Shown: positions 47,724-62,768 of the stretch, piece by piece | Position numbering within the stretch: position 1 is the first letter of the stretch | Layout: every line of letters begins with the position of its first letter | Origin: Haloprofundus halobius | GTDB taxonomy: Archaea > Halobacteriota > Halobacteria > Halobacteriales > Haloferacaceae | DNA: 64,000 nucleotides | Reading direction: 5' to 3' | NCBI RefSeq assembly: GCF_020097835.1 | Contig: NZ_CP083666.1 | Coordinates: forward strand, 1,240,001 to 1,304,000 | Notes under the pieces: model-generated | Told to the model about the DNA's origin: nothing | Seen by the model: the letters and a program-made list of their open reading frames with translations, nothing else | The model's database searches: none | Position numbers and translations under genes: made by a program

Positions 47724-47798
47724 GGGCGCTTAGCTCAGTCTGGACAGAGTGCTTGGCTTCGGACCAAGTTGCCGTGGGTTCAAATCCTGCAGCGCCCA
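47724..47798 (+). tRNA. tRNA-Arg (anticodon UCG)
   Basis: 75 bases folding as a clean cloverleaf: acceptor GGGCGCT/AGCGCCC plus discriminator A, D arm GCTC/GAGT, anticodon stem CTTGG/CCAAG around loop CTTCGGA (anticodon TCG at 34-36), and T arm GTGGG/CCTGC around TTCAAAT. No intron and no encoded CCA, as usual in archaea. Its 3' end (CCTGCAGCGCCCAT) is repeated downstream at 47907, 50784 and 55085 and, weakly, at 61270, so it appears to be the attachment site of the cassettes that follow. Confidence 0.93.
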
Positions 47799-47906
47799 TG
47801 TTTTCCGACGAACGAAGTGAGGAGTGAAAACTGGACCGCGAAGGATTTGAACGAGACGAGACGCAGCGCGAACGGAGTGAGCGACCGTCTCGGCGTAGTC
47901 CACACT

Positions 47907-48086
47907 CCTGCAGCGCCCATACATTTGCGCGGCGGTAACCGCCCGACTGCGGCGGGGTAATCCTCCAATCGAACGCAGCGCCGTTGCTTTCGTTCGATGG
48001 GTGACCAGACGAGTGGTGTCCACGGGAATTCACGTACGTCCAAACTGGTGACGAGAGAGAGAAAATCAATCGCCGATTGATCTACG
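47907..48086. repeat. Cassette-end repeat B (tRNA-Arg 3' end plus conserved left end)
   Basis: Begins with CCTGCAGCGCCCATACATTT, the tRNA 3' end with six more bases shared with copies C and D. It continues with a conserved block ending near TTGATCTACG. Two dyads are visible: ATCGAACG..CGTTCGAT with about a 17-base loop, and ATCAATCG-C-CGATTGAT, perfect in this copy. It is related over most of its length to 50784-50957 and 55085-55259. No coding frame is preserved across the copies. Confidence 0.75.
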
Positions 48087-48164
48087 AACCGTACATACCC
48101 CTCTGGGATCTCGAATCCCATTCTTGGTGTGGATATCGACCGAGATGCAGGTAATTGCCCTCTG

Positions 48165-48797
48165 CTACTCCATCGATGGCCCTTCCATGAATTCCTTCAT
48201 TATCGCACCTTCGGCCCTGTGAAGAATGCCGCTCGCCGTCGCCTTGTTGACGCCTAGCGCATCCGCGACATCGGTGAGCGAACAACGACGTGGGGTGTCG
48301 TAGTAGCCGCGTTCGAGAGCTTCGGTCACGAACTCTCGCTGGCGCTCGGTGAGCAACTCTGTCGGGTCCTGCGACTGGGTCACGGAGAGAAGTTCATACT
48401 TCACGCCCACCGCCTCAAGTTGTTCTCTGAACGCCGTGAGACGGTCATGAGTGGTGATGGACTCAGCGAGAATCCATCCGTCCCGAAGCACGAGCGGATA
48501 TGGGGGCGGGTTGTTAGATTCCTGTCCGGCCCGTCCTGCTGCTGGCTCCGATTCCTGAAGGAACTGGATTACTGCCTTCCGGTCGTCGGTGTGAAGTACC
48601 TCGTGCGTGAGTACGTCCGAATCTCCCTCCAAGAAGTTGGCGGCTCTCTCCGGGTCGAGTTCTTCAATCTCCACGAGCGTCATGTGCCCTGCATCCGTCG
48701 AGAGGGACGTCAGGATACGGAACGTGGCATCCGGGTGTGCTTTCGACAATTCGGCGAGACTCCCAGACGCTTCGACCTTCATTCGAACCTTCGGCAT
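48165..48797 (-). CDS. Bacterioopsin-activator-type (HTH_10) transcription regulator
   Basis: 210 residues from the ATG at 48797. The N-terminal 140 residues are a sensor-like alpha/beta domain (MTLVEIEELDPERAANFLEG, YPLVLRDGWILAESITTHDR). The C-terminal HTH reads TELLTERQREFVTEALERGY, then RRCSLTDVADALGVNKATAS and GILHRAEGAIMKEFM, typical of Bat-type regulators. A perfect 20-base palindrome lies 34-53 bases before its start, and the same core precedes the neighbouring copper-protein and membrane-protein genes, so it probably controls itself and them. The signal may be redox or copper; this is inference. Confidence 0.83.
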   Translation of the reverse strand: MPKVRMKVEASGSLAELSKAHPDATFRILTSLSTDAGHMTLVEIEELDPERAANFLEGDSDVLTHEVLHTDDRKAVIQFLQESEPAAGRAGQESNNPPPYPLVLRDGWILAESITTHDRLTAFREQLEAVGVKYELLSVTQSQDPTELLTERQREFVTEALERGYYDTPRRCSLTDVADALGVNKATASGILHRAEGAIMKEFMEGPSME

Positions 48798-48830
48798 ACT
48801 GTACGAGAGGTCGGCCACCTATTCAGCGAT

Positions 48831-48850
48831 AACGCAAACATGTTTGCGTT
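48831..48850. promoter_or_regulatory. Perfect 20-bp palindrome, operator of the cassette 1 regulator
   Basis: AACGCAAACATGTTTGCGTT, identical to its own reverse complement. It sits between the end of the membrane protein gene and the regulator start at 48797, where a promoter would be. Shorter forms of its core recur at 50288 and 50372. Confidence 0.75.
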
Positions 48851-48877
48851 TGTCGAGTACGTGGAGTTCAACTCCGG

Positions 48878-49675
48878 TTAGTCGGAGCTGTCCGCACCCT
48901 TCCGGTGGCTCACCTCTCCAGCGGCGACGAACCCGGTAGCCCAGAGCATGGCGAGTCCACCCCAGATGGGGCCTACACTCGACGCGAGGGCGGGATGTAG
49001 GACGGACGTGGCCCCGAAGACGCCCACGAGTCCCGCGGTGCTCCAGAGCGGGATCCGCCAGCCGACAGGTTTCACGCTAGCCAGCAACCCGAGCAGCAGG
49101 ACGAGGAGAGAATACGTGACCATGTCCGCGTAGTGGCCGAGCTGGGCGTGGACATCGCCCGACGCTTGAAGGGCGTATTGATCCGCTGCGTAGACAGTAA
49201 GCGGAATCGCCGCGAGGACGACGAGTCCGACGAGAACGTGGCTGACCGAGCCCGTCGTCCGAACGCGGAGGACGTCCCGACCGGCAGGGTGGAGTGCAAA
49301 GGCAGCCAGCAGTAAGCCGCCTAGGAGCAGCGCTGGCGGGAAGAAGAATCCCGTTAGCACGTTCGCTCCCGTGATCACGACGTTGACGAGCAGAGCTTGT
49401 TGGATCCCCGCAACCCGTCGCTCGGGTTCGTAGAGTTGCACGAGGAGTCCGGCAACGACCGTCCAGAGCATCGTGACGAGCGCGAGGTCGTGGAGGTGGT
49501 GGACGGCCGGCACGCTGACGATCCAGGCCGTAAAGAGGAACGTGAGCGTGTCACCGAGGAATACCACCATGAGGGCGAGAAGCGCCACCACAGTCACGTA
49601 AAACGCGACGAGCCGGAGGCCCCCAGCTTGTCGAAGCAGCGCCGTTGGGTATTGCAGGCCAGTATCAGCGGTCAT
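48878..49675 (-). CDS. Seven-helix membrane protein, partner of the halocyanin
   Basis: 265 residues with about seven membrane helices, among them RLVAFYVTVVALLALMVVFL, FLFTAWIVSVPAVHHLHDLA and VSHVLVGLVVLAAIPLTVYA. Several His lie near helix ends (PAVHHLHDL, VHAQLGHYADM), which may bind haem or copper. The gene starts five bases after the stop of the copper protein on the same strand, so the pair is co-transcribed and probably forms one electron-transfer or copper-handling unit at the membrane. No named family recognised. Confidence 0.75.
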   Translation of the reverse strand: MTADTGLQYPTALLRQAGGLRLVAFYVTVVALLALMVVFLGDTLTFLFTAWIVSVPAVHHLHDLALVTMLWTVVAGLLVQLYEPERRVAGIQQALLVNVVITGANVLTGFFFPPALLLGGLLLAAFALHPAGRDVLRVRTTGSVSHVLVGLVVLAAIPLTVYAADQYALQASGDVHAQLGHYADMVTYSLLVLLLGLLASVKPVGWRIPLWSTAGLVGVFGATSVLHPALASSVGPIWGGLAMLWATGFVAAGEVSHRKGADSSD

Positions 49676-49680
49676 TATCT

Positions 49681-50154
49681 CTACGCACCTCTCTGCCCGA
49701 ATTCTGCCGTCGGTTCGACGGTGATGGTGCCGGTCATTCCAGCCTGCTCGTGCGGGATGCAGTAGTACGTGTACGTTCCGGGCTTGTCGAACGTGTACGT
49801 GTACTCTTCGCCGCGGTCGAGGACACCGCCACCCCCGGATGCGCCATCTCGGGCGGCAGCCTCGTTCGTGAAGCCGCCACTGCTGAAGTACGCTGCTCCT
49901 GGTGGGAGCTCGTCCTCGTAAGCGGTCACCGTATGCGGAGCGTAGCCTACGGTCCGCCAGACGACCGTTTCGCCCACGGGAATCGTGACCGCGTCCGGTT
50001 CGAATCGGTTGTCGTCGGTCATCTCGACGAGTGTCCCATCTACGTCCCCGGGCGACTCTCCCGATGCGCCCAGGCCGATGCATCCTGACAGTGAGAGGCT
50101 AAAACCGAGCGTCGTCCCTACGCCCAGACCACGGAGGACCGACCGCCGGTTCAC
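49681..50154 (-). CDS. Halocyanin-like blue copper lipoprotein
   Basis: 157 residues from a GTG at 50154 (MNRRSVLRGLGVG); an in-frame GTG at 50163 and ATG at 50250 are alternatives. The twin-arginine signal ends in a lipobox (LSLSGCIGLG), so the protein is an exported lipoprotein. The cupredoxin domain carries the type 1 copper ligands: His in GYAPHTVTAY and Cys, His, Met in TYYCIPHEQAGMTGTI. It carries electrons outside the membrane. The loop DGASGGGGVLDRGEEYTYT lies between. First gene of the pair with the seven-helix protein. Confidence 0.87.
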   Translation of the reverse strand: MNRRSVLRGLGVGTTLGFSLSLSGCIGLGASGESPGDVDGTLVEMTDDNRFEPDAVTIPVGETVVWRTVGYAPHTVTAYEDELPPGAAYFSSGGFTNEAAARDGASGGGGVLDRGEEYTYTFDKPGTYTYYCIPHEQAGMTGTITVEPTAEFGQRGA

Positions 50155-50287
50155 CAGCCACACCCCCGAGAACGTTGTTTGTCCGTTCCACGAGCGGCGG
50201 GGCGGTGGACGTCTGTGCTGGCACTTGCTGGACCGCGTATTTCGCGCCATATCCAGTTGGAAGCGCCTTTGCGCCGTGGCGATTTGC

Positions 50288-50301
50288 GCCAACATGTTTG
50301 C
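50288..50301. promoter_or_regulatory. Operator-like site upstream of the halocyanin gene
   Basis: GCCAACATGTTTGC shares AACATGTTTGC with the palindrome at 48831, with one arm degenerate. It lies about 135 bases before the GTG chosen for the copper protein and about 40 bases before the alternative ATG at 50250, which slightly favours a transcript start near 50250. Confidence 0.55.
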
Positions 50302-50371
50302 ATCCTCACGGCGGCTCAAGCGTTGTTACTTGATGTGGAACATTCAGTCACGATACGGGTAGTCTGAAGTG

Positions 50372-50387
50372 GGCAACATGTTTGCGA
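50372..50387. promoter_or_regulatory. Operator-like site upstream of the small membrane protein
   Basis: GGCAACATGTTTGCGA, a third copy of the AACATGTTTGC core, 11-26 bases before the ATG at 50398 on the other strand. It would overlap the transcription start of that gene. Confidence 0.55.
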
Positions 50388-50397
50388 GAATTGCCAT

Positions 50398-50697
50398 ATG
50401 ACCACGCCACAACGTATGAACTGGAGACTTATGACCGACGAAACTACGACTGAAACCGTTGTACAGACTCCTCAATGGCGGAAAACGTTCGGCGTCAACT
50501 GGACCCGAGTCGAGGGAGTACTCGGCGTCGGCGCGCTGCTCACCTCGTTCATCTGGTTCCTGGGGATGCCGACTGGCATGGCAATCGGCGTCGGATTCGG
50601 GATCGTTCTCGTTCTGGACGTCGTCCGAGCACTGATCTTCAACTCCTCCCGACGCGATCGCTCCGAATTCGGTACGTCAGAATCCGCTAGGCAATAA
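50398..50697 (+). CDS. Small two-helix membrane protein of cassette 1
   Basis: 99 residues. Soluble N terminus (TDETTTETVVQTPQWRKTFG), then VEGVLGVGALLTSFIWFLGM and GMAIGVGFGIVLVLDVVRAL as membrane helices, and a Ser/Arg-rich tail. An internal ATG at 50416 or 50431 may be the true start. It diverges from the copper-protein operon across 243 bases that carry two of the cassette operators. Function unknown. Confidence 0.65.
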   Translation: MTTPQRMNWRLMTDETTTETVVQTPQWRKTFGVNWTRVEGVLGVGALLTSFIWFLGMPTGMAIGVGFGIVLVLDVVRALIFNSSRRDRSEFGTSESARQ

Positions 50698-50716
50698 CAC
50701 TCCGTCAGAAACGGGG

Positions 50717-50957
50717 TTTTGAGGCGGCCGAACTCGACCGTCTCACACCTCAAAGGACGATCCGTTCGTCAGTCGAACCGGAGCCTGCAGCGCCCATACA
50801 TCTGACGCGCGATAATCACCCTACAGCGCTGCGAGCATCGGTCGAACGAGCCGCTTCCGTGCTTTCGTTCGATGGTCGAACGAGGGAGTGGTTTTCACAG
50901 GGGTTCGCGTACAGCCAAACCCATCACCTTTGAGAAAATCAATCGCCTATTGATACG
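50717..50957. repeat. Cassette-end repeat C (right end, tRNA-Arg 3' end, left end)
   Basis: Left part 50717-50783 (GAGGCGGCCGAACTCGACCG onward) matches 55032-55084 and 61203-61269. The core CCTGCAGCGCCCAT is at 50784-50797. The right part to 50957 matches repeats B and D, with the TCGAACGA..TCGTTCGA dyad and an imperfect ATCAATCGCC..ATTGAT. It therefore joins one conserved right end to one conserved left end. The following 130 bases to 51088 hold nothing I can recognise. Confidence 0.75.
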
Positions 50958-51088
50958 CCATCTCGATGACACCATCGGATTCAGTTGAGATGAACACGAC
51001 GATTAGTAAAGGCACTTCAGTAAGGGAATCGCGTGTTTTCCCTATCGTTTACAGGGTCCATAGTATTGGCCGAAACTCGCTGCGTAGT

Positions 51089-52060
51089 TTACTCTGTTAC
51101 CCTCGATAGCGATCGGATCCAGTTCGGAACATACCCGAACGTGGTCCACGTACCGTTCCTGCGGGTGATAACCCGTCCTTCGGTCGTTCCCGCGAGAACG
51201 CGTTCGTCAGCCGCCGCCCATGCGTAAACGAACTCGTCCGGTGCGCCGGGATACGGCTTGGTCTCGAACGAGTCTCCGCCGTCTGTCGATTCGAACAATG
51301 ACGCGTTCACGTCTCGCGTTCTATAACTCGCACCTATCGGAAGGGTCGGTGGAAGCGTTTGCGCGGCGGCGTACAACGTACCCTGATGGGAAAACGCCGC
51401 TTGGAAGTACGGACCAGGCAAATCCGTATCGATTCGCGTCCATGAATGCCCGGCGTTAGTGGTTCGGTAGAGTCCACCGCCGCACGAGACGACGTATTCG
51501 TCGGCGGTTACCACCAACACGTGGTGAACATCGTATTGGAGGTTGTCCCCGCGTTCAGTCTCAAGACCCTCGCGTCGTTCGGTCCACGTCTTACCATTAT
51601 CATCGCTAACGTGAACGCCGCCGACTTCGACACCAGCAACTACCCGGTCGGGTGCATCCGCGTGTACACCGAGGCTCCGGACGTGTGACTTCTCCCGATG
51701 ACGAGGAGTGTGCCATTGGTCGCGGGAGGGAAGCTTCTGGAATCCCTTCAGTTCCGTCCATGTCCTGCCTTTGTCAGTCGAGACGTACATGTGAGCTGGA
51801 TGCGTGCCCGCGTACAGCCGGCTGCCGTCGGGACTGACTGCAACCGCGTACACCCCCTCTTGTGGCACGCCAAGTCGGTTCCATGTCGTGCCTTGATCGA
51901 CCGAGCGGTAGAGGCCAGTTTTCGACGCGGCGAACGACCCATGTTCCTTGAACGTATGAACGCCGAGCGTCACTCCCGAGTCAAGTACTCGTTCGACATC
52001 GTCGAGCTCACCGCTCCGGGAGCGATAGACGCCATCCTGCGTCCCGATCAATAATGTCAT
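51089..52060 (-). CDS. Asp-box (BNR) beta-propeller protein
   Basis: 323 residues, a sialidase-like or WD40-like propeller without a signal peptide. At least five Asp-box repeats are seen: SVDQGTTWNRL near 53, STDKGRTWTEL near 89, SDDNGKTWTER near 151, TTNAGHSWTRI near 202 and STDGGDSFETK near 264. Such proteins are often annotated as exo-alpha-sialidase or photosystem-assembly-like, but the catalytic Arg triad and Tyr/Glu of sialidases are not evident. Probably a binding scaffold. The next upstream gene on the same strand, nine bases away, is the flavin reductase. Confidence 0.8.
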   Translation of the reverse strand: MTLLIGTQDGVYRSRSGELDDVERVLDSGVTLGVHTFKEHGSFAASKTGLYRSVDQGTTWNRLGVPQEGVYAVAVSPDGSRLYAGTHPAHMYVSTDKGRTWTELKGFQKLPSRDQWHTPRHREKSHVRSLGVHADAPDRVVAGVEVGGVHVSDDNGKTWTERREGLETERGDNLQYDVHHVLVVTADEYVVSCGGGLYRTTNAGHSWTRIDTDLPGPYFQAAFSHQGTLYAAAQTLPPTLPIGASYRTRDVNASLFESTDGGDSFETKPYPGAPDEFVYAWAAADERVLAGTTEGRVITRRNGTWTTFGYVPNWIRSLSRVTE

Positions 52061-52069
52061 GAGGTTCCA

Positions 52070-52672
52070 TTACACCTCCTGAAGCTGCGCCGCTTGGATT
52101 TCGACCGGTTCGATCGCTGCGTACTCGACAGCGCGTACGCCGAGCGTCTGAACACGCTCTCGGAGGTTTTCGTCGGTGAATCCGTTTTCGTCGAACGCGG
52201 TACGCGTCTGCGGAACTGCCGCCTGATACGGAAGGACCCAGGCGTTCAGCGATCGACAGACGTCGCGGAGGTGAGTGAGCGCCAGCGTGGGAAACGGCCC
52301 GCCCGAAGCGACGAGGAGCCCGACGGTTGTATCCTCAAACTCGTCGAATCCGCAGTAATCGAGCGCGTTCTTCAACACGCCCGAATACGACCCGTGGTAC
52401 AGGGGCGTTCCGAGGATGACCGCATCGGCCTCACGGACTGTCCGCCGCACCACGACGCCGTCTCCTTCCCCATCGACGTCGGGATCGAGCGGCGGAAGAT
52501 CTACCTCTGCGAGGTCGAGCAACTCGGTTGTGCCGCCAGCTGCTTCGACGCCGACTAGCGTCTCCTGGAGCGCTCGTCGGGTGCAACTCCCTTCGCGTCG
52601 GCTCCCGCATACTGCGACGACGTGTGGCCGTGCCCCTTTCGATGATCGACCGGCGCGTCCGAGAGAGCTCAT
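52070..52672 (-). CDS. NADPH-dependent FMN reductase family flavoprotein
   Basis: 200-residue flavodoxin-like reductase. Seen: VVAVCGSRREGSCTRRALQE near residues 18-37 (FMN phosphate loop), VILGTPLYHGSYSGVLKNAL near 85-104 and LLVASGGPFPTLALTHLRDV near 119-138. It reduces FMN, quinones or metals with NAD(P)H. Its ATG overlaps the stop of the upstream DUF6069-like gene by four bases, so the pair is translated together. Partner of the divergent HxlR regulator by position; HxlR regulators commonly control such reductases. Confidence 0.85.
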   Translation of the reverse strand: MSSLGRAGRSSKGARPHVVAVCGSRREGSCTRRALQETLVGVEAAGGTTELLDLAEVDLPPLDPDVDGEGDGVVVRRTVREADAVILGTPLYHGSYSGVLKNALDYCGFDEFEDTTVGLLVASGGPFPTLALTHLRDVCRSLNAWVLPYQAAVPQTRTAFDENGFTDENLRERVQTLGVRAVEYAAIEPVEIQAAQLQEV

Positions 52673-53127
52673 CGGGGTTCGCCCTCCGGGTGCGTTGCTC
52701 GGGTCAGGACACCGACGAAGGTGACTGCGGCGGCCACGTGCATCACCCCGAGGATAGCGAAGATCCTCGGCGGAGCGCCGGCCAGGTCGGGCGCGAGGAA
52801 CATCGCAAAGGAGAGCATCAAGATCACCCCTGCGATAATGGTGAACGTCCGGTTCGGTCGGGCCGAGTATCGCGTGACCACTCCGTACGCGAGAGTCGCC
52901 CCGATAGCGGCAACGGCCGAATTAACGACGACCGGCCCCACCGCGAGTGGTCCGAACGGGCCCCCAACGAACTCGGACGGGAATTCGACGAGCGCTAGCC
53001 CGATGAACAGGACGAGGACGTTCACGATGCTCACGGCGAGCAGCGCTAAGAGGCCGTATTTTGCGAGTCGGGACGTGCCGACGGAACTGTTCGATTCTGA
53101 TTCATTCATAGCGATCGTGGATGCCAT
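52669..53127 (-). CDS. Four-helix membrane protein, DUF6069-like
   Basis: 152 residues from the ATG at 53127; an ATG at 53109 is possible. Helices: YGLLALLAVSIVNVLVLFIG, VGPVVVNSAVAAIGATLAYG, TIIAGVILMLSFAMFLAP and RIFAILGVMHVAAAVTFVGV. The layout is that of DUF6069 proteins. A TATA element at 53151-53158 favours 53127 as a leaderless start. It is the first gene of the operon with the flavin reductase. Function unknown. Confidence 0.75.
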   Translation of the reverse strand: MASTIAMNESESNSSVGTSRLAKYGLLALLAVSIVNVLVLFIGLALVEFPSEFVGGPFGPLAVGPVVVNSAVAAIGATLAYGVVTRYSARPNRTFTIIAGVILMLSFAMFLAPDLAGAPPRIFAILGVMHVAAAVTFVGVLTRATHPEGEPR

Positions 53128-53150
53128 ACCCAATAGTACAGTATCTGTAG

Positions 53151-53158
53151 TAATATAC
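53151..53158 (-). promoter_or_regulatory. TATA box of the DUF6069-like/reductase operon
   Basis: The minus strand reads GTATATTA, centred about 27 bases before the ATG at 53127. Confidence 0.55.
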
Positions 53159-53170
53159 TATCAGGTTAGA

Positions 53171-53236
53171 AGTTATGGAGTAACTCACCTGTTGCGTAGC
53201 TACTTCCAACCTTTGAAGAAACAAGTTATGTGACTT
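53171..53236. promoter_or_regulatory. Two related dyads between the HxlR gene and its divergent operon
   Basis: AGTTATGGAGTAACT (53171-53185, arms AGTTA/TAACT) and AAGTTATGTGACTT (53223-53236, arms AAGT/ACTT) share AGTTATG. A wider inverted repeat AGGTTAGAAGT..ACTTCCAACCT spans 53163-53213. They sit next to the two divergent promoters, as expected for HxlR operators. Confidence 0.55.
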
Positions 53237-53255
53237 CAGAAGGAATAGTCAGGCC

Positions 53256-53702
53256 ATGGTCGAACCACCGCAAGCCGAAGAATTTATGGAGGCGATTCTC
53301 TCCAACGAGACAGCGCGGCCGCCCGGGTCCGAACAGGCCAATAAAGACAATCGAACGATGTCCGAACTCCTCAACCTGCTGGGGAAGAAGCACACCATCG
53401 TGATCCTCCACCAGTTCGCAACTGGTGATGGGCCGTTGCGATTTAGCGACTTGGAGAAAGCCGTGGGTATCGCGCCGAATACGCTCTCGAATCGGCTCGA
53501 AGAACTCACAGCGGTCGGGTTGCTCACGCGGAAAGCGTACAACGAGATCCCGCCCCGCGTCGAGTACGACGCCACGGAGAAGGCAAGAGAGCTCGCACCG
53601 GTCTTCTGGTATCTCGGTGTCTGGACGGAGCGTCACGACCTCGAACCGAGAGCTACCGATGGCGAAGAAATAAGCGAACCTCAGAAGGGCGATCAGCAGT
53701 AA
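53256..53702 (+). CDS. HxlR-family transcription regulator
   Basis: 148-residue winged-helix regulator. The core reads SELLNLLGKKHTIVILHQFA, then PLRFSDLEKAVGIAPNTLSN and RLEELTAVGLLTRKAYNEIP, then RVEYDATEKARELAPVFWYL, the HxlR pattern. The ends are charged. HxlR proteins usually sense electrophiles or redox state and act as dimers. It diverges from the membrane/flavin reductase operon, with operator-like dyads between, so it probably controls both. Start ATG 53256. Confidence 0.87.
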   Translation: MVEPPQAEEFMEAILSNETARPPGSEQANKDNRTMSELLNLLGKKHTIVILHQFATGDGPLRFSDLEKAVGIAPNTLSNRLEELTAVGLLTRKAYNEIPPRVEYDATEKARELAPVFWYLGVWTERHDLEPRATDGEEISEPQKGDQQ

Positions 53703-53994
53703 CTCGCTGCGGTTCTTGATGTGTGATTTTCGGCTTCACTCCTCCAAGAACTTCCGGATTGACGCAGTTACTCGGTGTTGGGCCGGCGGGCTGTGTCATA
53801 GTTACTGACGATGAGGTCGCTATTTCACACGAGGAGTTCGAATGTCTGTGATTCTGAGAGACCCGAACTGTTGAATACAGAGGATAGATCCATCACCAGT
53901 AATCCGGTTACTCGCTCAGGTGGGATACACTGAGTCCGGAGCCAGTAACCGGTTTTAACTACCTAGAGATAGGGGATCCGGTTGGTGGCATCGT

Positions 53995-54804
53995 TTACGC
54001 TTTGAATGCGGTCGTTTGGAGATACTGATTCTCGACGATTGCGGTTCCATCAGTCGCGCGATTGTATCGACTCATGACGGTGTCGAGATCGTCTAAGAGG
54101 CTCTCTCGGTCGGCAGAATCGAGCTTCTCAAGTGCTCGGATCGTCGGGCCGAAGTACGTGCTGAACACCTCCACAGCATGGTCGATCGACCGATAGTACT
54201 GAAGTGCCGCTCGCTGGTTATTCTCGATCGATCGAACGCCGGGACCCAGTAGCTTCTCAACCCCCTCGTCTGTCCCCCAGCGAAGGGGTGACTGAACGCC
54301 AGGCGGTGGCGGCATGTACTTGGCATGCGTAGCAAACCAGTCGCCGCTCCATCCCTCGGGGATCGGCCCCGCCAGTCCGATCTTTCCCCCCGGTTTACAC
54401 ACCCGAAGCAACTCGCGTGCCGCCTGCACCTGATCGGGCGCGAACTGCACCCCGTATACGGAGAGAACCGCGTCGAAGCTATCGTCAGGAAACGGCATAT
54501 CCTGGGCATCGCCGACGCAGAAATCGATTGCTTGTCCATTGGCCTGTGCACGTGCCGTAGCACGGTTGATCAAGCCGGGGACGTAGTCGATACCTGTGAC
54601 GTCACAGTACCGTCGCTCCGCGATTAGGGCCGCCGTCCCGCTGCCACAGGCCACATCCAGCACCCGCTGCCCGGGGTGTGGATCGACCGCCTCGACGAGC
54701 GCCTCTGCCATGACCACGTTTTGGCGGGCGATCTCGTTGAAATCGCCAGTTGCCCACGTCTCCTTCTGGTTCTCCGTAATGCCAGTATAGTCTGTTTTGC
54801 TCAT
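53995..54804 (-). CDS. SAM-dependent methyltransferase
   Basis: 269 residues, class I methyltransferase of the UbiE/Methyltransf_11 type. Seen: GQRVLDVACGSGTAALIAER near residues 49-68 (SAM motif I), DVTGIDYVPGLINRATARAQ near 71-90, CVGDAQDMPFPDDSFDAVLS near 97-116 (motif II/III), and RELLRVCKPGGKIGLAGPIP near 129-148. ATG 54804 starts at MSKTDYTGITENQKETWATG; a long open frame upstream is not coding. The substrate is probably a small molecule, unknown. Confidence 0.86.
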   Translation of the reverse strand: MSKTDYTGITENQKETWATGDFNEIARQNVVMAEALVEAVDPHPGQRVLDVACGSGTAALIAERRYCDVTGIDYVPGLINRATARAQANGQAIDFCVGDAQDMPFPDDSFDAVLSVYGVQFAPDQVQAARELLRVCKPGGKIGLAGPIPEGWSGDWFATHAKYMPPPPGVQSPLRWGTDEGVEKLLGPGVRSIENNQRAALQYYRSIDHAVEVFSTYFGPTIRALEKLDSADRESLLDDLDTVMSRYNRATDGTAIVENQYLQTTAFKA

Positions 54805-55031
54805 GTTTTCTTCCCGACTTTCACGAGCGAGCTCGATCGTACGTCGTGATCCACCCACTCGTTCCCGCGAGTCGCCCACGCTACCAGAAGAAAATGTGAG
54901 AAGAGATATATGTGCTACACGATACCAAATACCATAACAGTACCGGATAGAGCGACCGGTATGCCCATATTTGGTGAGGGTGCTTCCGACGCCAACAATA
55001 GACAATGAGAGATACGCGCCATCTTGTGCGA
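54805..55031. other. Intergenic segment upstream of the methyltransferase
   Basis: About 225 bases without a gene, part of a 650-base gap that continues into repeat D. It includes AT-rich stretches (AGAGATATATGTGC near 54903) and the nested inverted repeat listed separately. No coding frame supported. Confidence 0.4.
54924..54975. repeat. Nested inverted repeat
   Basis: Outer arms ACCAAATA and TATTTGGT are perfect complements, 36 bases apart; inside them TACCGG and CCGGTA pair around a nine-base loop. The whole could fold as a stem with side bulges. It lies about 120 bases upstream of the methyltransferase start and may be an operator, a small structured RNA or the remains of an element end. 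Confidence 0.55.
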
Positions 55032-55259
55032 GAATTCGGACGCCTCATGTCTGAAAGGTCGATTCGTTCGATATCGAACCGGAGCCTACAGCGCCCCTAC
55101 ATTTGACGTGCTATGATCGTCCGATAGCTCGGTGATTTTTGATCTAACGGACATGATTTTGCTTTCGTTCGATTGGTCATCAGCCCAGTAGACATCACCG
55201 GAGTTCGCGCCCAGCCAAACAGGTCGCAACCTTGAAAATCAATCGCAGATTGAGGTACG
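55032..55259. repeat. Cassette-end repeat D
   Basis: The left part from GAATTCGGACGCCTCATGTC (55032) matches repeat C and, more weakly, 61203. The core at 55085-55098 is CCTACAGCGCCCCT, two changes from the tRNA end. The right part matches B and C, with ATCTAACG..CGTTCGAT as the first dyad (one mismatch) and ATCAATCGCAGATTGA as the second. It is the most diverged of the three full copies. The next 196 bases to 55455 hold no gene. Confidence 0.7.
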
Positions 55260-55455
55260 TTCCTCTACGTGTATTTAATAAATGCATTTCGATCAAGAAT
55301 CGTTCCATCGCTGTCAGACGCCCCATGCTGAAAACAGAGGATGAGTTCGGCACAGATCACCATCTCTATCCGGAGTTGAATAGCTGAATCAGCCGTTACA
55401 GACTACGGCGTATCGAACGGACGCCGGAAATGAGAGTGTGACCAGTCGCCAGTCG

Positions 55456-56340
55456 TTAGTTCTCTTCACGGATGAATGCAATTGCCTCTTCGATGAAGCG
55501 GTCCGGCCCGGTGAGCATCGCCTCGTGTGCGTGCCCATCAAGGGTAACAATCCGGCTGTTCGGGAGCGCGTCGTTGACCGGGGCTGTAGCGTCTTTCAAG
55601 AGCGGAGGGCTCTCGCTGCCGGACAACAGCAACGTCGGCGTCGTCATGTCGGCGAACCGTGCTGCATCGAACTCGTACCCGCCGATCGCTGACAAGCTGC
55701 GGGGCCAGACGTGTGCCGCGTCCACGAGATCCTGCCAGTCCGGGGCTGAGCGTTGCGTCTCGATCTCCTCCTGCGTAGATTGGGCGATTTCTTGCAGGAA
55801 CAGGACAAGCACCTTCTCGTTTTCACCGTCGTCCAGCAGCCGATTCATTTTCGCGAGCACCGCATCGGAGTAGAGTTTGTGATCATCGAACGTGATCGGT
55901 GGTTCGTACAGGACGAGTTTGTGGAGGTTGTCGGTTCGCAGGGCCGCCTCCAGCGATAAGAGCGCTCCCGATGAGTGTCCAAGGAGCGTTACAGGGTCGT
56001 CGATACTCTCGACGACCGCAGCCACGTCTTCGAACTCCCGTTTCAAGTCGTACTCGTCGGCGTCACCGGAAGCGTACGCCTCCGGTTGGCCAGCCGAACT
56101 TCGCTCGGTGACGTCGCCGCTCTCACCGACACCACGGCAATCCATCGCATAGACCGTGAAGTGGCCCGCGAAGGTGGCACGAACGTCGGATAACTCCCAG
56201 AACCTGTGATCACAGACGCCTCCGTGGACGAGCACGAGCGGTGGCCCGCCCCCCGTCCGTTCGAAGGCAATCTCAGTCCCGTCTGCGGACGTGACTGTTT
56301 CCATGTTTCCACCCGTGTCTGGTGGTGTTGCTTCTGCCAT
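55456..56340 (-). CDS. Alpha/beta hydrolase
   Basis: 294 residues from the ATG at 56340; an ATG at 56304 right before the fold is possible. Seen: PPLVLVHGGVCDHRFWELSD near residue 32 (oxyanion His-Gly-Gly), AMDCRGVGESGD, nucleophile elbow VTLLGHSSGALLSLEAALR near 118-136, and the catalytic His in VTLDGHAHEAMLTGPDRF near 272. It is an esterase, lipase or haloperoxidase-like enzyme of the cytoplasm. A perfect 9-bp dyad lies just upstream, so its promoter is regulated. Confidence 0.85.
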   Translation of the reverse strand: MAEATPPDTGGNMETVTSADGTEIAFERTGGGPPLVLVHGGVCDHRFWELSDVRATFAGHFTVYAMDCRGVGESGDVTERSSAGQPEAYASGDADEYDLKREFEDVAAVVESIDDPVTLLGHSSGALLSLEAALRTDNLHKLVLYEPPITFDDHKLYSDAVLAKMNRLLDDGENEKVLVLFLQEIAQSTQEEIETQRSAPDWQDLVDAAHVWPRSLSAIGGYEFDAARFADMTTPTLLLSGSESPPLLKDATAPVNDALPNSRIVTLDGHAHEAMLTGPDRFIEEAIAFIREEN

Positions 56341-56359
56341 GGGTCGTTCACCCCCGTCG

Positions 56360-56382
56360 TCTATGTGACGCAATCACATAGA
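56360..56382. promoter_or_regulatory. Perfect 9-bp dyad at the hydrolase promoter
   Basis: TCTATGTGA, five-base spacer, TCACATAGA, 20-42 bases before the hydrolase ATG at 56340. The position suggests a repressor site overlapping the transcription start. Confidence 0.65.
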
Positions 56383-56625
56383 GCCATCTCGTGAAAAATC
56401 TCCACGGTCTGCACAGAAAGCACGACCCGTCTTGAGTCGAACAGTCCGTGAACGATCTGTGCGCTGTATGCAGCAAGGGCGTGTTATCAATTAGAGAAAG
56501 GCAACCACCGTTTCCTCCCTCGCCTGTATGCATCATACGAAATCTCTGACTGGAGACCGTTCAGGGTAGTCGTGGTGATGTAACGGGGCTGCTCGTCAAG
56601 CGTTTCCGTTTTCCTCGAAACCAGA

Positions 56626-57537
56626 TCACCGATTCAAATCTGACTTCGCGTCGAGTGGATTGGAATCCGCTCTGACCGATGCGTAGACGCGCTCGGCCCA
56701 CTCGCGCGCGATCGGATCGTCCGTATCGACGAACACCCGCATCAGCCCGGTGGTCTCGTCGTAGCCCCCGATTCCGACACGGTCGTCGAACAGCGCGAGG
56801 CCGTACGGCAGGCCTTCGCGCGTCCGGAGAGTCAAGTGTCCCCGATCTATCGCCTCGCGGGCGCGTTCGGGGTACGTCTCGAATAGTTTCTCGACGATGT
56901 GCGGCAGGTAGATGATTTCGGTGTCGGTTTCGTCGAACACTCGCTGGTGGAACTCACCGAGGACCAACGGAGCCATGTGCGTCGTATTGAACCCCCGGAA
57001 GGTGTCGGACTCGCGGACAAGCGCGATGAATCGCTCTATCGGCCTGTAGGGATTATCCGGTTCCGCGACGGTAATCGTCGCGTCCACGAACGGTTCGAGG
57101 ACGAAGTCCCGGTGATCATCACAGACCGCATCCAGAAGCGGCGTCATTCTGTGTGCGGTCCGGACGTTCGCCTCGAACCGGAGGACCTCTTCGGCGATGA
57201 CTGCGCCGCGCCAGGTCAACTGGAATCGGCCGTCGACCTTCTCGACGAAGTCCTGCTCGTCGAGCCACTGCGTGTAGCGGTGGCTCGTCGCCCGCGAGAC
57301 GCCGAGGCACGCTTCGATCTCCCGGCGATCGAGCGGTTCCTCCAGCAGGACTTCGAGGACGGGGCCGTGCCTGACGATGTCGCCGAGCAGGTTCGTATCG
57401 ACGCGGTCGCCTGCGGCGTCCAATCGCTGGCCGAGATAGCGACGGTTCCGTTCGTTTTCCAGAATCGCCTCCAGGACCGGCGAGCCTGGTGGCGGACGGC
57501 CATCGTCATCCAATCGGTCGTCTTGGTAGGAATCCAT
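56626..57537 (-). CDS. HTH regulator with FilR1-type ligand domain, cassette 3
   Basis: 303 residues from the ATG at 57537. The winged helix reads GPVLEVLLEEPLDRREIEAC, LGVSRATSHRYTQWLDEQDF and KVDGRFQLTWRGAVIAEEVL. The C-terminal domain (DNPYRPIERFIALVRESDTF, then LPYGLALFDDRVGIGGYDET and RVFVDTDDPIAREWAERVYA) is the FilR1-type ligand domain and closely parallels the protein at 39176-39985. A 13-base palindrome lies 27-39 bases upstream. It diverges from the BBE flavoenzyme operon, its likely target. Confidence 0.83.
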   Translation of the reverse strand: MDSYQDDRLDDDGRPPPGSPVLEAILENERNRRYLGQRLDAAGDRVDTNLLGDIVRHGPVLEVLLEEPLDRREIEACLGVSRATSHRYTQWLDEQDFVEKVDGRFQLTWRGAVIAEEVLRFEANVRTAHRMTPLLDAVCDDHRDFVLEPFVDATITVAEPDNPYRPIERFIALVRESDTFRGFNTTHMAPLVLGEFHQRVFDETDTEIIYLPHIVEKLFETYPERAREAIDRGHLTLRTREGLPYGLALFDDRVGIGGYDETTGLMRVFVDTDDPIAREWAERVYASVRADSNPLDAKSDLNR

Positions 57538-57563
57538 GTGACTCACTCGCTAGACAGAGGCTG

Positions 57564-57576
57564 TCACTAATAGTGA
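57564..57576. promoter_or_regulatory. 13-bp perfect palindrome between the regulator and the flavoenzyme operon
   Basis: TCACTAATAGTGA (arms TCACTA/TAGTGA around one A). It sits in the 149-base divergent promoter region, close to the regulator start, as expected for autoregulation. Confidence 0.65.
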
Positions 57577-57686
57577 TTCTATCCCGTACACGTTCCGAAA
57601 TTCGTCTCACGGTCTGAAACGGTCCTCTCGGCACCGAACCCTACTCGATGGGAGAGGCCAACACCCGCGCTGTCGTCCACATCTGT

Positions 57687-59120
57687 ATGGCACAACACGA
57701 CATCCCCGCAGAACAGATCGAACAGTTCGAAGCCGAATTCCACGGCGACCTGATTCGTTCCGACGGTGCCGACTACGACGACGCGCGCGCGGTGTGGAAC
57801 GGGAAGATCGACAAGCGTCCGGCCCTGATCGCCCGGTGTCGGGGCGTCGGCGACGTCGTCAGCGCGGTGAACTTCACCCGCGAACACGAACTGCTGTTAG
57901 CGGTTCGTGGTGGTGGTCATAACGTCGCCGGGACCGCCGTCTGCGACGACGGACTCGTTATCGACCTCTCGGAGATGCGGAGCGTACGGGTAGATCCCAA
58001 CACACGAACAGCGTGGGTTCAAGCCGGTGCCACGTGGGCAGACGTGGACCGCGAAACCCAGGCGTTCGGGCTGGCGACGCCAGGTGGGGTTGTCTCGGAG
58101 ACGGGCGTCGCGGGGCTCACTCTCGGTGGCGGCATCGGTCACCTTCGCTGTAAGTATGGCTTGACCTGTGACAACCTCGCGTCCGTAGACGTAGTCACGG
58201 CAGGCGGTGAGTACCTAACCGCCAGCGAGGACGAGAACGTGGAACTCTTCTGGGGGATTCGCGGCGGTGGCGGGAACTTCGGTATCGTCACCGGCTTCGA
58301 GTTCGATCTCCACCCAGTCGGCCCCGAGGTGGTGATGTGTTTGGTGTTCTACCCAGGAGACCGGATGGCCGAGTGTCTGCGAGCGTACCGCGAGTACGTC
58401 GCAGCTGCGCCCCCGGAGGTCAGCACGCTCACATTGTCGGGTGTGATGCCCGACGAGGAACGCTTTCCGGCGGACGCGGTGGACGAAACCAAGATCGCAA
58501 TCGCGGGTTGTTATGCGGGCTCGGTCGAGGACGGCGAGCGTGTACTGATGCCCCTGCGGGAGATCGCCGAACCGATCGCCGACTTCAGCGGGACGATGCC
58601 GTACGTGGAAGTACAGCAACTGTTCGACGAGGACTACCCCGACGGAATGCGCTACTACTGGAAGTCGCTGTACCTCGACGATCTGTCGGAGTCCGCCATT
58701 GATCGTATCACGTACTGGACCGATGTCGCTCCCTCCCCGCTTTCGACGGTCGATGTCTGGCAATTAGGAGGGGCTATCGCTCGGGTTGACGCCGAGGAGA
58801 GCGCGTTCGCGGGGCGGCACGCGCCCTTTCTGCTGGGCGTCGAAGCGAACTGGGAGCGCCCGGAGAACGACGACGCGAACGTCGAGTGGGTGCGCGACTG
58901 TCTCGACGATATGCGCCAGTTCTCTGACGGTTCGGTGTACCTGAACTTCCCCGGATTCCTCGAAGAGGGAGACGATATGATGCGAGCCACGTTTGGACCG
59001 ACGTACGAGCGATTGGTCGTACTGAAAGACGAGTACGACCCGACGAACCTGTTCGAGCTCAACCAGAACATCACGCCGTCCGGAAGTGCTCAAGCCGACG
59101 GCAGGGCATACCATGAGTGA
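57687..59120 (+). CDS. FAD-linked oxidoreductase of the berberine-bridge type
   Basis: 477 residues from the ATG at 57687, where similarity begins; an ATG at 57648 would add 13 residues. The PCMH-type FAD domain shows LLAVRGGGHNVAGTAVCDDG near residues 70-89 (with the His that usually bonds FAD), GLTLGGGIGHLRCKYGLTCD near 145-164 and WGIRGGGGNFGIVTGFEFD near 190-208. The BBE domain closes the chain (YLNFPGFLEEGDD, then LKDEYDPTNLFELNQNI). The Cys in LRCKYGL could give the second FAD bond, but this is not certain. It oxidises an alcohol, sugar or phenol with O2. It overlaps the next gene by eight bases. Confidence 0.85.
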   Translation: MAQHDIPAEQIEQFEAEFHGDLIRSDGADYDDARAVWNGKIDKRPALIARCRGVGDVVSAVNFTREHELLLAVRGGGHNVAGTAVCDDGLVIDLSEMRSVRVDPNTRTAWVQAGATWADVDRETQAFGLATPGGVVSETGVAGLTLGGGIGHLRCKYGLTCDNLASVDVVTAGGEYLTASEDENVELFWGIRGGGGNFGIVTGFEFDLHPVGPEVVMCLVFYPGDRMAECLRAYREYVAAAPPEVSTLTLSGVMPDEERFPADAVDETKIAIAGCYAGSVEDGERVLMPLREIAEPIADFSGTMPYVEVQQLFDEDYPDGMRYYWKSLYLDDLSESAIDRITYWTDVAPSPLSTVDVWQLGGAIARVDAEESAFAGRHAPFLLGVEANWERPENDDANVEWVRDCLDDMRQFSDGSVYLNFPGFLEEGDDMMRATFGPTYERLVVLKDEYDPTNLFELNQNITPSGSAQADGRAYHE

Positions 59121-59358
59121 TCGGGACGCTGAATTCCCGGCGGCCGAGTGGCGGGTATCGATAGCCAGGGTCGTACTGCTGAGTACAATGGTGGTCCCAC
59201 CGAGCGTCCTGGTGGTCGCTCCCGTATTCGGTGAGTCCGGACAGGCTGCTGCCACGGTCGGTTACGTTATGGCGGAAGCACTCGTGCTGTACGTCGGCTA
59301 CGGGACGCTGGCGCGGGTTGCTAGCCCGGCCGCCCGTGAAATCCTTTCGAGCACTTGA
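59113..59358 (+). CDS. Small membrane protein of the flavoenzyme operon
   Basis: 81 residues from the ATG at 59113, which overlaps the end of the BBE gene. Two membrane helices: RVVLLSTMVVPPSVLVVAPV and AATVGYVMAEALVLYVGYG. N and C termini are short and polar. The stop is two bases before the TauE gene, so the three genes form one transcript. No family recognised. Confidence 0.65.
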   Translation: MSDRDAEFPAAEWRVSIARVVLLSTMVVPPSVLVVAPVFGESGQAAATVGYVMAEALVLYVGYGTLARVASPAAREILSST

Positions 59359-59360
59359 TC

Positions 59361-60350
59361 ATGGAACTCCTCGGTCTCGATATCGTGACGGTCGGTCTCT
59401 TCGTCGGATTCGGTCTGCTCATCGGCATCGTCTTCGGATTCTTCGGAATGGGTGGATCGTTCCTCGTGACGCCGGCGTTACTGGTGGTCGGATATCCGGC
59501 ACCGGTGGCTGTCGGGAGCGGGCTCGCGTTCGTCTTCGGCACCAGTATCGTCGGTGCGCTCAGACACCGCGATCACGGCCAGGTCAGCTACACGCTGGCG
59601 GCGGTGATGATCTCCGGAATGACGTTTGGCATCGAGGTCGGCACCCGAGTCGTGTTCCTGCTGACGGATCTCGGCAGCGTCGACGTCGTGATCAGCGGGA
59701 TGTACGTCGGACTTCTCGGTGCGGTTGGGCTCTTTGTCCTCCGTGATGCTCGTACTGACGGTACCGATGTGGAAACGGGCCGAGTCGCTACCAGGGTTCA
59801 GACCATTAAGCTCCCACCGATGGTGTCGCTACAGGGCGGGGCGACCGTCTCGGTGTGGGTTATCCTTGTTGTCGGGGTGGGAGTAGGCGTTCTCTCGGGC
59901 TGTCTCGGCGTCGGTGGGGGGTTCCTGCTGCTCCCCGCCATGATCTACGGGTTCGGCGTTCCAACGGCAGTCGCCGCCGGGACCAGTATCCTCCAGATCA
60001 CCGTTTCGGGTGCGTTCGGGACGTACGTTTACGCTCAGTCGAACGCCGTCGACGTCTCTGTCGTCGCCGCGTTGCTTCTCGGGAGCGCTTTCGGCGCTCG
60101 TATCGGTGCAGGCGCGACACGCCTCGTACACGAAGACGACGTCAAGGGCTACTTCGCAGGTATGCTGCTCGCTGGTAGTGTCGCTACTGCGAGTAAGCAG
60201 GTGAGTGCCGTATACGGTGTCGAAACGCTCGAGATCGTGAGCGCGGTCCTCATCTTTGGAACTGCGGTTCTGGTCAGTAGTGCAATCGCCTCTGCCTCGG
60301 TCGACGCGCTCAGAAGCAATCGAGACTGCGGGCCGTCACTAATTCGCTGA
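59361..60350 (+). CDS. TauE/SafE-family membrane transporter
   Basis: 329-residue integral membrane protein with about eight helices. The two halves show the family repeat GIVFGFFGMGGSFLVTPALL near residues 25-44 and GVLSGCLGVGGGFLLLPAMI near 178-197. Such proteins export sulfite, sulfonates or other organic anions. It is the last gene of the flavoenzyme operon, so the substrate may be a product of the BBE enzyme or the hydrolase of this cassette. That link is inference. Confidence 0.85.
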   Translation: MELLGLDIVTVGLFVGFGLLIGIVFGFFGMGGSFLVTPALLVVGYPAPVAVGSGLAFVFGTSIVGALRHRDHGQVSYTLAAVMISGMTFGIEVGTRVVFLLTDLGSVDVVISGMYVGLLGAVGLFVLRDARTDGTDVETGRVATRVQTIKLPPMVSLQGGATVSVWVILVVGVGVGVLSGCLGVGGGFLLLPAMIYGFGVPTAVAAGTSILQITVSGAFGTYVYAQSNAVDVSVVAALLLGSAFGARIGAGATRLVHEDDVKGYFAGMLLAGSVATASKQVSAVYGVETLEIVSAVLIFGTAVLVSSAIASASVDALRSNRDCGPSLIR

Positions 60351-60705
60351 CGATCGGCGCCTTCTCGACGGCTACTGACGTTTTTGGCGACTCTACAGCG
60401 GAGTCCCGTTTCATCTCCCTTCGGTTCCGATACTGAGCACCGCGAGGATATCCAGCAAGACCGCAGACGGTCGGCTCTCTCGACTCGTTCGACCGTCTCC
60501 GAGAGTCCCCCCGATGCCTTGTGAAGAGGTAACGACTAACGTAGTTCGGGACGTAGTCACCCAGTAGCGCCTGATTCGACGGTCCGGTGCTCGAGGAGAG
60601 TCCGTTGTGCCGGGCGCAACGACGGGAGAGTTCCATGGCATCAGCAGTAGCGACCGACACCGAAAGCGGTACAACGCGGGTACGACCTCTCACACGGGGC
60701 GCGAG
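60351..60705. other. Intergenic, no gene seen
   Basis: 355 bases between the TauE gene and the ABM-like gene. The downstream frame is open back to 60607, but only from 60706 does it look like a protein. I see no repeat, TATA box of note, or RNA gene here. Confidence 0.4.
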
Positions 60706-61095
60706 ATGAGCGATATCATCCTGTATCTCGACCGATCTACGGTGCACGACGGAAAGTTAGATGAACTCGAACCGGCGATGGCGGAGTTAGTGGATTTCGT
60801 CGAGGCCAACGAACCGGAAATACTGGCGTACGACGTCTACTTCAGCGCCGACGGGGACCGGATGACCGTGGTGCATATGCACGCTGATCAGGCATCATTG
60901 GAATTTCACATGGAGGTCGCGGGCCCGAAGTTCCCCCCGATCGGCGAGTTCATCGACCTCGAATCCATCGACGTGTATGGCCAGCTAAGTGAAGATCTCA
61001 TCGAACGGTTGAGGGACAAAGCCTCGGAGTTGGGAAGTGGACGTGTGTCAGTCCACGTACTTCATCGAGGCGTCAATCGAATTACGGACGATTGA
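60706..61095 (+). CDS. Small ABM-like (dimeric alpha/beta barrel) protein
   Basis: 129 residues from the ATG at 60706. SDIILYLDRSTVHDGKLDEL begins the first strand and helix. FVEANEPEILAYDVYFSADG and TVVHMHADQASLEFHMEVAG follow, as in antibiotic-biosynthesis monooxygenase-type proteins. The C-terminal 30 residues (RDKASELGSGRVSVHVLHRG) are an extra piece. It may be a monooxygenase or an aldehyde-handling protein; the name is a fold guess. Last gene of cassette 3. Confidence 0.65.
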   Translation: MSDIILYLDRSTVHDGKLDELEPAMAELVDFVEANEPEILAYDVYFSADGDRMTVVHMHADQASLEFHMEVAGPKFPPIGEFIDLESIDVYGQLSEDLIERLRDKASELGSGRVSVHVLHRGVNRITDD

Positions 61096-61202
61096 GCCGA
61101 AGGGAGGGGCGGACAGTTGGCGATCTGCAGTTCGAGTGCGTGGTTAGGGTCGACGAGGTCGAGGTCAGCGGTCGTTTCCACGCCAACCCCGTTTGCCTCA
61201 CC

Positions 61203-61283
61203 GTTCTGAAGCGGCCGATTTCGGCCGTCTCAAACACCCACGACCGATTTTTCGGCCCTCGACTCCGAGGCTGCAGCACCTAC
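61203..61283. repeat. Cassette-end repeat E (degenerate right end)
   Basis: GTTCTGAAGCGGCCGATTTC onward lines up with the left part of repeat C (GTTTTGAGGCGGCCGAACTC), including CCGTCTCA, ACACC and GACCGAT blocks, and ends at GAGGCTGCAGCACCTAC, a weak match to GAGCCTGCAGCGCCCATAC. It also has a CGGCCGA/TCGGCCG hairpin. It marks the likely far end of the cassette array. The rest of the 300-base gap to 61394 holds no gene. Confidence 0.5.
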
Positions 61284-61394
61284 TGCTCTGCGGCGAATAC
61301 CGGAGCGTAGAGAGCCGTCACTCACGACAGGTGTCGAGCCGACGAGAGCAACGAGCGACTGTGGGCACGACCTCGAAGTATCCGGTTCACTCCG

Positions 61395-61598
61395 TTACGC
61401 CTCGTCTCGACGGCCATTCTCGCCGGTCGAGTCGTCGGTGTCGATGCCCACACCGTCCAGCTGAACCTCGACGAATTCGACCTCGCCGCACTTCGGACAG
61501 TTTTGGTTCTCCGTCGGAAGCACTATCGAACCTTCGTCGCCGATTCGCGCGGAGTACACCTGTCCGCATCTGGAACACGTGACTACTGTTCTATCCAT
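61395..61598 (-). CDS. Small zinc-ribbon protein
   Basis: 67 residues from the ATG at 61598: MDRTVVTCSRCGQVYSARIG then NCPKCGEVEFVEVQLDG. Two CxxC pairs 27 residues apart form a standard zinc ribbon. The tail is acidic. Such haloarchaeal microproteins lack assigned roles. The gene lies downstream of the HalOD1-type gene on the same strand (98-base gap). Confidence 0.75.
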   Translation of the reverse strand: MDRTVVTCSRCGQVYSARIGDEGSIVLPTENQNCPKCGEVEFVEVQLDGVGIDTDDSTGENGRRDEA

Positions 61599-61696
61599 AC
61601 CCCTCGAACCGTCGTTACCGGACGCCGATTCACGAGAACGTGAGCGTCCGAGCCCTCGTTTGACTCTAGTATCGAGCTTCCGTGCCTCACGGCGGC

Positions 61697-61966: not shown

Positions 61967-62097
61967 TACCTTTCAAACGGCTTTATCCAATTAAAATGTG
62001 TCGGAAGGTGGTAAATTGCCGGTTTCAGGACGATTTTCTGTAAATTTGGGCACCAGAGACTAACAAGCGAGATATTCTCCGAGGAAATATGTTCATG

Positions 62098-62565: not shown

Positions 62566-62768
62566 CGCTCCGAGAGGGAGTACTACGAAAGCACAAAAAT
62601 AGCCTCGGGACGAGATGAACCACCGCTACCAACAGTACGGAGTTCGACAGAAACCGGACGAGACGCCGAAAGACCGCATTTCGGCGAACACTACCCTCTG
62701 CTGTTCCGTCGCCGTCCACAAACGGGCCGTAACCCGGCCGAGCAGCGTTTCCGAGGTAGCGGAGGTAT

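Follow-up and report, generated by a model that had tools for sequence, protein, structure and literature searches.

We analyzed a 64,000-nucleotide stretch of the Haloprofundus halobius genome (contig NZ_CP083666.1, positions 1,240,001 to 1,304,000 of the forward strand), hereafter the window, in which a gene for tRNA-Arg(UCG) is followed by a tandem array of three gene cassettes. The tRNA gene (47724..47798, plus strand; TCG in DNA), identified with ARAGORN and Rfam, is the anchor of the array, and its last 13-14 bases form the attachment core. This 3'-terminal 14-mer, CCTGCAGCGCCCAT, occurs exactly at 47786, 47907, and 50784, with two changes at 55085, and in degenerate form at 61270; no further copy within two mismatches was found elsewhere in the window. 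We refer to the positions 47907, 50784, 55085, and 61270 as B, C, D, and E. On the plus strand, they delimit cassette 1 (2.9 kb, 47907..50797), cassette 2 (4.3 kb, 50784..55098), and cassette 3 (6.2 kb, 55085..61283, with a degenerate right boundary), each recognized by profiles of a left end (LE), in which the core comes first, and a right end (RE), in which it comes last. The LEs of cassettes 1, 2, and 3 lie at 47907..48086, 50784..50957, and 55085..55259 and are ~172 nt long, as determined by both alignment and profile. The corresponding REs, named C, D, and E, lie at 50716..50797, 55028..55098, and 61203..61283 and are ~65-80 nt long, the last with a diverged core.

The three LEs (B, C, and D) were 69-74% identical across ~173 aligned columns, and their alignment scores of 52-65 stood 16-17 standard deviations (sd) above shuffle means of -27 to -29 (sd ~5). 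Among the REs, the pairs C-D and C-E scored 36 and 31 compared with ~9 (sd ~1.3) for shuffles; the pair D-E scored 12, which is weak by itself. An RE profile that contained all three window copies matched C, D, and E with E-values of 3.6e-22, 1.8e-17, and 5.1e-11, and an earlier profile seeded from junctions of an RE followed by an LE, with E not among the seeds, also matched E at 37 bits after one iteration. A preliminary description of the locus had reported the same core recurrences, along with ~175 conserved bases after the core and ~55-67 before it, each in three copies, and our searches recovered all of these with slightly revised lengths. Recurrence by chance is ruled out by the distance from shuffled sequences and by the class-wide recurrence described below. 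We also rejected the possibility that the LE is part of a coding gene or of a split (suicide-type) integrase, as its indels are not multiples of three and its conserved blocks look non-coding when the alignment is read by eye. A related motif, TTCGTTCGA..GTCGAAC, is present in the consensus sequences of both LE and RE, with the palindrome CGGCCGAATTCGGCCG frequent in the RE; these are possible candidates for arm-type or regulator sites.

The cargo of cassette 1 consists of an HTH_10 transcription factor (48165..48818; PF04967), a predicted membrane protein without a Pfam family (48878..49540), and a blue-copper (plastocyanin-type) protein (49681..50250; PF00127), all on the minus strand, and a small predicted membrane protein on the plus strand, also without a Pfam family (50398..50697). 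Cassette 2 carries a BNR/YCF48-like repeat protein (51089..52060), an NADPH-dependent FMN reductase (52070..52672; PF03358), and a DUF6069 membrane protein (52669..53133) on the minus strand, an HxlR transcription factor on the plus strand (53256..53702; PF01638), and an S-adenosylmethionine-dependent methyltransferase on the minus strand (53995..54804; PF08241). A homologue of this methyltransferase adjoins an RE-core-LE junction on a plasmid of Haloprofundus salinisoli. In cassette 3, Pfam scans identified an alpha/beta hydrolase with homologues on haloarchaeal plasmids (55456..56373) and an HVO_A0261_N/FilR1-type transcription factor (56626..57546) on the minus strand, followed on the plus strand by an FAD-binding (berberine-bridge-like) oxidoreductase (57648..59120), a DUF7512 small protein (59086..59358), a TauE/SafE sulfite exporter family protein (59355..60350), and an ABM-like monooxygenase slightly under the Pfam cut-off (60607..61095). 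Plasmids of Natrinema, Haloterrigena, and others carry homologues of parts of this cargo, most of them 80-88% identical. On the plasmid of Natrinema sp. SYSU A 869, an RE whose core is truncated follows the cassette 3-like cargo, without any LE being found there. As the preliminary description had stated, each of the three cassettes has a transcription factor of its own, and Pfam scans of their cargo returned no recombinase.

The same ends recur across the haloarchaea. Among 170 genomes belonging to the same family, a profile built from the three window LEs matched in 64 (19 of 28 genera) and the RE profile in 86 (23 of 28 genera). In a class-wide sample, the RE profile found matches in 135 of 391 genomes and 40 of 86 genera at E<=1e-6, and the carriers of one exact RE pattern include Natrinema, Halorubrum, Natronomonas, Halosimplex, Halobacterium, Halorientalis, Halopenitus, and Halobellus. 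At many loci, the LE is fused straight to the 3' end of tRNA-Arg(TCG). A subfamily has its LE fused to tRNA-Arg(CCG) instead, with the core altered to CCCGTCGCGCCCGT, which matches that tRNA. Other genomes thus support the earlier proposal that three related elements with common ends and different cargo accreted in tandem at one tRNA.

The preliminary description had allowed that the repeats might prove to be unlinked to tRNA-Arg. Linkage to tRNA-Arg(UCG) or tRNA-Arg(CCG) was found at many loci in other genomes, although some cassettes are far from the tRNA in long arrays or on plasmids. Arrays in genus g18 reach tens of kilobases from the tRNA, and four of its genomes (G072, G074, G075, and G076) have up to 12 REs in several chromosomal regions, some in opposite orientation and far from tRNA-Arg. 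Tandem cassettes are also present on megaplasmids of Natrinema sp. SYSU A 869 (L219, 5618-27924) and Halomontanus rarus (L220, 15178-21320). No tRNA gene was found near either plasmid array, and in L219 a 3'-end fragment of a tRNA precedes the first LE. The existence of arrays on plasmids lacking a nearby tRNA suggests that plasmids are one route by which cassettes pass between cells. At three loci (L218 16865-16933, L197 16493-16562, and L204 11265-11333), the core at the end of the RE is cut short to CCTGCAG, and unrelated DNA begins behind it. These sites look as if insertion had occurred at secondary sites with about seven matching bases, and the truncated core may mark the crossover region.

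Empty sites, which the preliminary description had suggested looking for, exist in close relatives. In the congener G081, the tRNA is followed by a ~100-base spacer, a slightly altered second core, and then directly by a flank homologous to the window from 62768 onward. Congeners G080 and G082 are also without an LE. The earlier view that the array is built on the 3' end of tRNA-Arg holds, but cassette 1 begins at the second core (47907), 108 bases past the tRNA, behind a spacer (47799..47906) that cassette-free congeners have in common with the window. Filled sites differ in which core is used: cassette 1 of the window occupies the second core, and in G083 the LE is on the tRNA itself. In G022, a member of another genus, a cassette separates the tRNA from the spacer, such that the first ~60 bases of the window spacer (59 nt at 97% identity) come directly past the last core. 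The arrangements in G081 and G022 are what site-specific insertion at the core predicts, and the comparison of empty and filled sites supports such insertion. In agreement with SNJ2-type integration, the tRNA is intact after insertion at its 3' end, the core is short, and the old flank is displaced at the core. The same gene order without repeats was not found in relatives, one congener instead having a cassette-free site. In the window, ~1.5 kb (61284-62767) separate the degenerate last RE from the flank conserved in congeners, and this segment encodes a zinc-ribbon-like protein, a HalOD1 protein, and an Lrp-like regulator.

Cassettes were delimited in the sampled loci as stretches from an LE to the next RE with both above threshold, a definition under which nested or degenerate elements can be merged; open reading frames of cassettes outside the window were picked by a composition rule. 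This resulted in 61 delimited cassettes with a median length of 2.7 kb (range 0.84-14.4 kb). An integrase of the family of P0001, a 336-aa protein from G075, was absent from 58 of these and present in three, with other recombinase families not systematically excluded outside the window. An all-versus-all comparison returned 18 pairs of cassettes that are similar in length and align, at 79-97% identity, along more than 80% of it. Neither 3-kb flank had a match over 80 bases in 13 of these pairs (plus-strand blastn), and one flank was partly in common in the remaining five. The clearest pairs include G072/G074 (97.3% over 4.3 kb), G075/G076 (93.5% over 10.9 kb), and G135/G014, which spans two genera (90.2%). 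A 1.6-kb cassette was present in three copies, in G075, G076, and G072, with one pair sharing a right flank. All of these recurring cassettes lack an integrase of the P0001 family, and in most of the arrays examined, no such integrase cassette is adjacent. Because recurring cassettes match between genomes, have unrelated flanks, and carry no integrase, the mobile unit is, judging by these alignments, the integrase-less stretch from LE to RE.

P0001 itself lies within an LE-to-RE cassette, adjoins the RE, and reads away from it. The protein has PF00589 and PF02899 domains, and among viral proteins it is closest to the SNJ2 and HHPV4 integrases (45% identity). In total, three cassettes carry an SNJ2-type tyrosine integrase, each beside the RE. 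We separately sampled 30 integrase loci encoding P0001 or its relatives (57-100% identity) and found an RE match of more than 20 bits just upstream of the integrase start codon in 24, with the core mostly 100-110 bases away. The strength of this match fell with integrase identity: it was 60-77 bits for the four integrases above 82% identity, ~20-49 bits at 63-72% identity (with one exception having none), and mostly little or nothing at or below 63%. Over 77 nt, RE C of the window shares 87% identity with the RE that accompanies the P0001 integrase (L081/L124). Given that REs adjoin integrase starts and become less similar as integrase identity drops, the RE is best interpreted as the attachment-site arm proximal to the integrase, an arm that integrase-less cassettes have retained. 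The preliminary description had argued that the window cassettes would need a recombinase from elsewhere, and the members with a tyrosine integrase beside the RE offer a plausible source. A viral carrier was sought in IMG/VR with the exact RE pattern and with P0001, and neither search gave a match. A second group of SNJ2-type integrases, ~55-62% identical to the cassette-borne ones, is found on the tRNA-proximal side of the arrays L039, L051, L053, L075, and L078 with different ends, implying that other elements use the same site.

We consider it probable, with fairly high confidence, that the window contains three non-autonomous integrative cassettes arrayed at tRNA-Arg(UCG) and mobilized in trans by the SNJ2-type integrase of autonomous relatives. 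In each cassette, the cargo would be flanked by the two halves of an attachment site for a tyrosine integrase, comprising an LE of ~172 nt, an RE of ~65-80 nt, and a 14-nt core. Autonomous members (in the order LE, cargo, integrase gene, RE), either resident or newly arrived, would supply the integrase, which would recombine cores flanked by an LE and an RE and free the cassette as a circle. The target of reinsertion would be the tRNA core or any other core already present, and insertion at the latter would cause cassettes to pile up in tandem. The SNJ2 integrase is recorded as active, and a case in which an exogenous integrase acts on integrated, related elements is known from archaea (PMC8371274). 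Four elements of this scheme are inferred: the circle, its release by an enzyme acting in trans, which enzyme is the helper, and the route of DNA between cells.

Several observations weigh against this explanation. No circle or excision event was observed. The best integrase in the window genome was rejected as a helper, being 56% identical to the cassette-borne one, located elsewhere, and without these ends; the window cassettes are thus probably stranded at present. Cassette 3, with its degenerate right end, is probably no longer mobile. Moreover, many carriers of strong REs have distant integrases only, or none at this level, and the plasmid arrays L219 and L220, having no nearby tRNA, require an extra step. 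Integrase-less cassettes served as seeds for the profiles, which biases the 58:3 ratio of cassettes without an integrase to those with one.

The lack of a close integrase in the window genome and the degraded right end of cassette 3, together with broken integrases at L051 and L053, would also suit dead remnants in the manner of classical decayed cis-mobilizable elements (CIMEs), which lost their integrase after insertion and left an array that is now only vertically inherited. We regard this as unlikely, since integrase-less cassettes of near-equal length occur in different genomes, some of different genera, between unrelated flanks, and the ends are conserved while the cargo is not. Another source of mobility could be a host chromosomal recombinase (e.g., XerA) or a distant resident SNJ2-type integrase, by analogy with elements that exploit Xer. 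An SNJ2-type integrase of some kind is indeed present in 138 of the 170 same-family genomes (E<=1e-60), with a close one in few. However, the REs most resemble those beside the integrases of a single clade, 82-100% identical to P0001, and are less alike as integrase identity drops. We give a host or distant enzyme a low probability.

It is also conceivable that the repeats are a dispersed intergenic element between whose copies homologous recombination shuffles DNA, with no site-specific recombinase involved. The ends of many cassettes are alike enough to act as homology, and some plasmid copies have no tRNA nearby. Yet such shuffling appears highly improbable given that the copies have a common core matching tRNA-Arg at its 3' end, that this core changes along with the target tRNA, that the tRNA stays intact and the old flank is displaced at the core, and that the RE keeps a near-constant distance from the integrase start in autonomous members.

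The smallest cassettes, of ~1 kb, come in two kinds: one encodes a PIN-domain protein along with a small partner and is of the TCG type, and the other encodes a Fic/Doc protein and is mostly of the CCG type. Homology searches of the 61 cassettes returned the PIN gene in eight, the small partner in 13, and the Fic gene in eight. These genes are mostly near the RE on the minus strand, which is the position of the integrase in autonomous members. Stand-alone ~1-kb cassettes recur in many genomes (PIN in L043, L047, L072, and L197; Fic in L051, L053, L078, and L080), and the same PIN and Fic/Doc genes are also found beside the RE of larger cassettes. Judging by their protein families, they may be toxin-antitoxin pairs that stabilize the arrays. 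Toxin-antitoxin cassettes recur in integrons.

Parts of this arrangement are known from other systems, of which CIMEs, the ssrA islands of Dehalococcoides, and the CALINs of integrons come closest. CIMEs of the Streptococcus ICESt1-type islands lack integration genes, retain attachment sites, and accumulate as tandem arrays at a single target gene (PMC5704250). The haloarchaeal cassettes resemble them in that 58 of 61, the three window cassettes among them, have no integration genes of the P0001 family, and in having LE and RE with cores at both ends, corresponding to putative retained attL and attR, although cassette 3 of the window has a degenerate right end. CIMEs have been described as individual decayed integrative and conjugative elements or integrative and mobilizable elements that are mobilized in cis with a functional neighbor (PMC5704250). 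In contrast, integrase-less units of 0.84-14 kb here recur across genera with conserved arms, often with no functional neighbor. As for an origin by decay and mobilization in cis, autonomous relatives with the same ends exist, and most arrays examined are without an adjoining integrase cassette. The ssrA islands of Dehalococcoides are likewise arranged in tandem at one RNA gene with shared direct repeats, and 15 of them have no integration module and were proposed to be mobilized by others (PMC3146451). Those islands depend on a CcrB-like serine recombinase and a tmRNA target in one bacterial genus (PMC3146451), whereas the present cassettes are associated with a tyrosine integrase and tRNA-Arg, are spread class-wide in haloarchaea, and have both arms conserved.

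SNJ2-type elements, namely the pleolipoviruses SNJ2 and HHPV4 (PMC8371274), share the integrase family (45% identity), tRNA targets, and a short core (13 bp in SNJ2). However, they are viruses with their own integrase, whereas the window cassettes encode none and three of their relatives do. Tycheposons are bacterial tRNA-associated integrative elements with cargo that are reported to have their own recombinase and to be phage satellites. Tycheposons of marine bacteria are named in PMC11389934. Integron arrays and clusters of attC sites lacking integron-integrases (CALINs), including those of archaeal integrons (PMC9668308), resemble the cassettes described here in their small size, unrelated cargo, shared recombination site, and general lack of an integrase of their own. 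Unlike integrons, the haloarchaeal cassettes have long conserved arms around a tRNA-derived core, can contain several genes plus regulators, and are associated with an SNJ2-type integrase (PF00589/PF02899) rather than IntI. Because the integrase is of another type, we do not class them as integrons. An Rfam scan of the window returned tRNA only, with no attC-specific model run, and the ends consist of long arms around the tRNA core. The main text of the archaeal integron paper does not mention Halobacteria (PMC9668308).

In agreement with the preliminary description, which knew of no family with this design, we found no description of these cassettes in the open-access papers searched; one in other journals is possible. 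The individual ideas are already known. What is new is the conservation of arms at both ends, the recurrence of tiny integrase-less units between genera, and the haloarchaeal spread. More speculatively, the cassettes could form a haloarchaeal gene-cassette system that is an independent analogue of the integron, with tRNA-Arg as the capture site, SNJ2-type integrases that act in trans to exchange small cassettes with matching arms, arrays of tens of kilobases, and stabilization by toxin-antitoxin pairs; we hold this broader view tentatively. With the ends and a candidate integrase identified, the idea is directly testable. Haloarchaea exchange genes widely, and the vehicle for most of their small accessory clusters is not known. 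Class-wide cassettes with recognizable ends would allow such clusters to be delimited from sequence and their toxin-antitoxin and regulator cargo to be found, and they raise the question of whether a tRNA-anchored cassette system is an archaeal counterpart of bacterial integrons.

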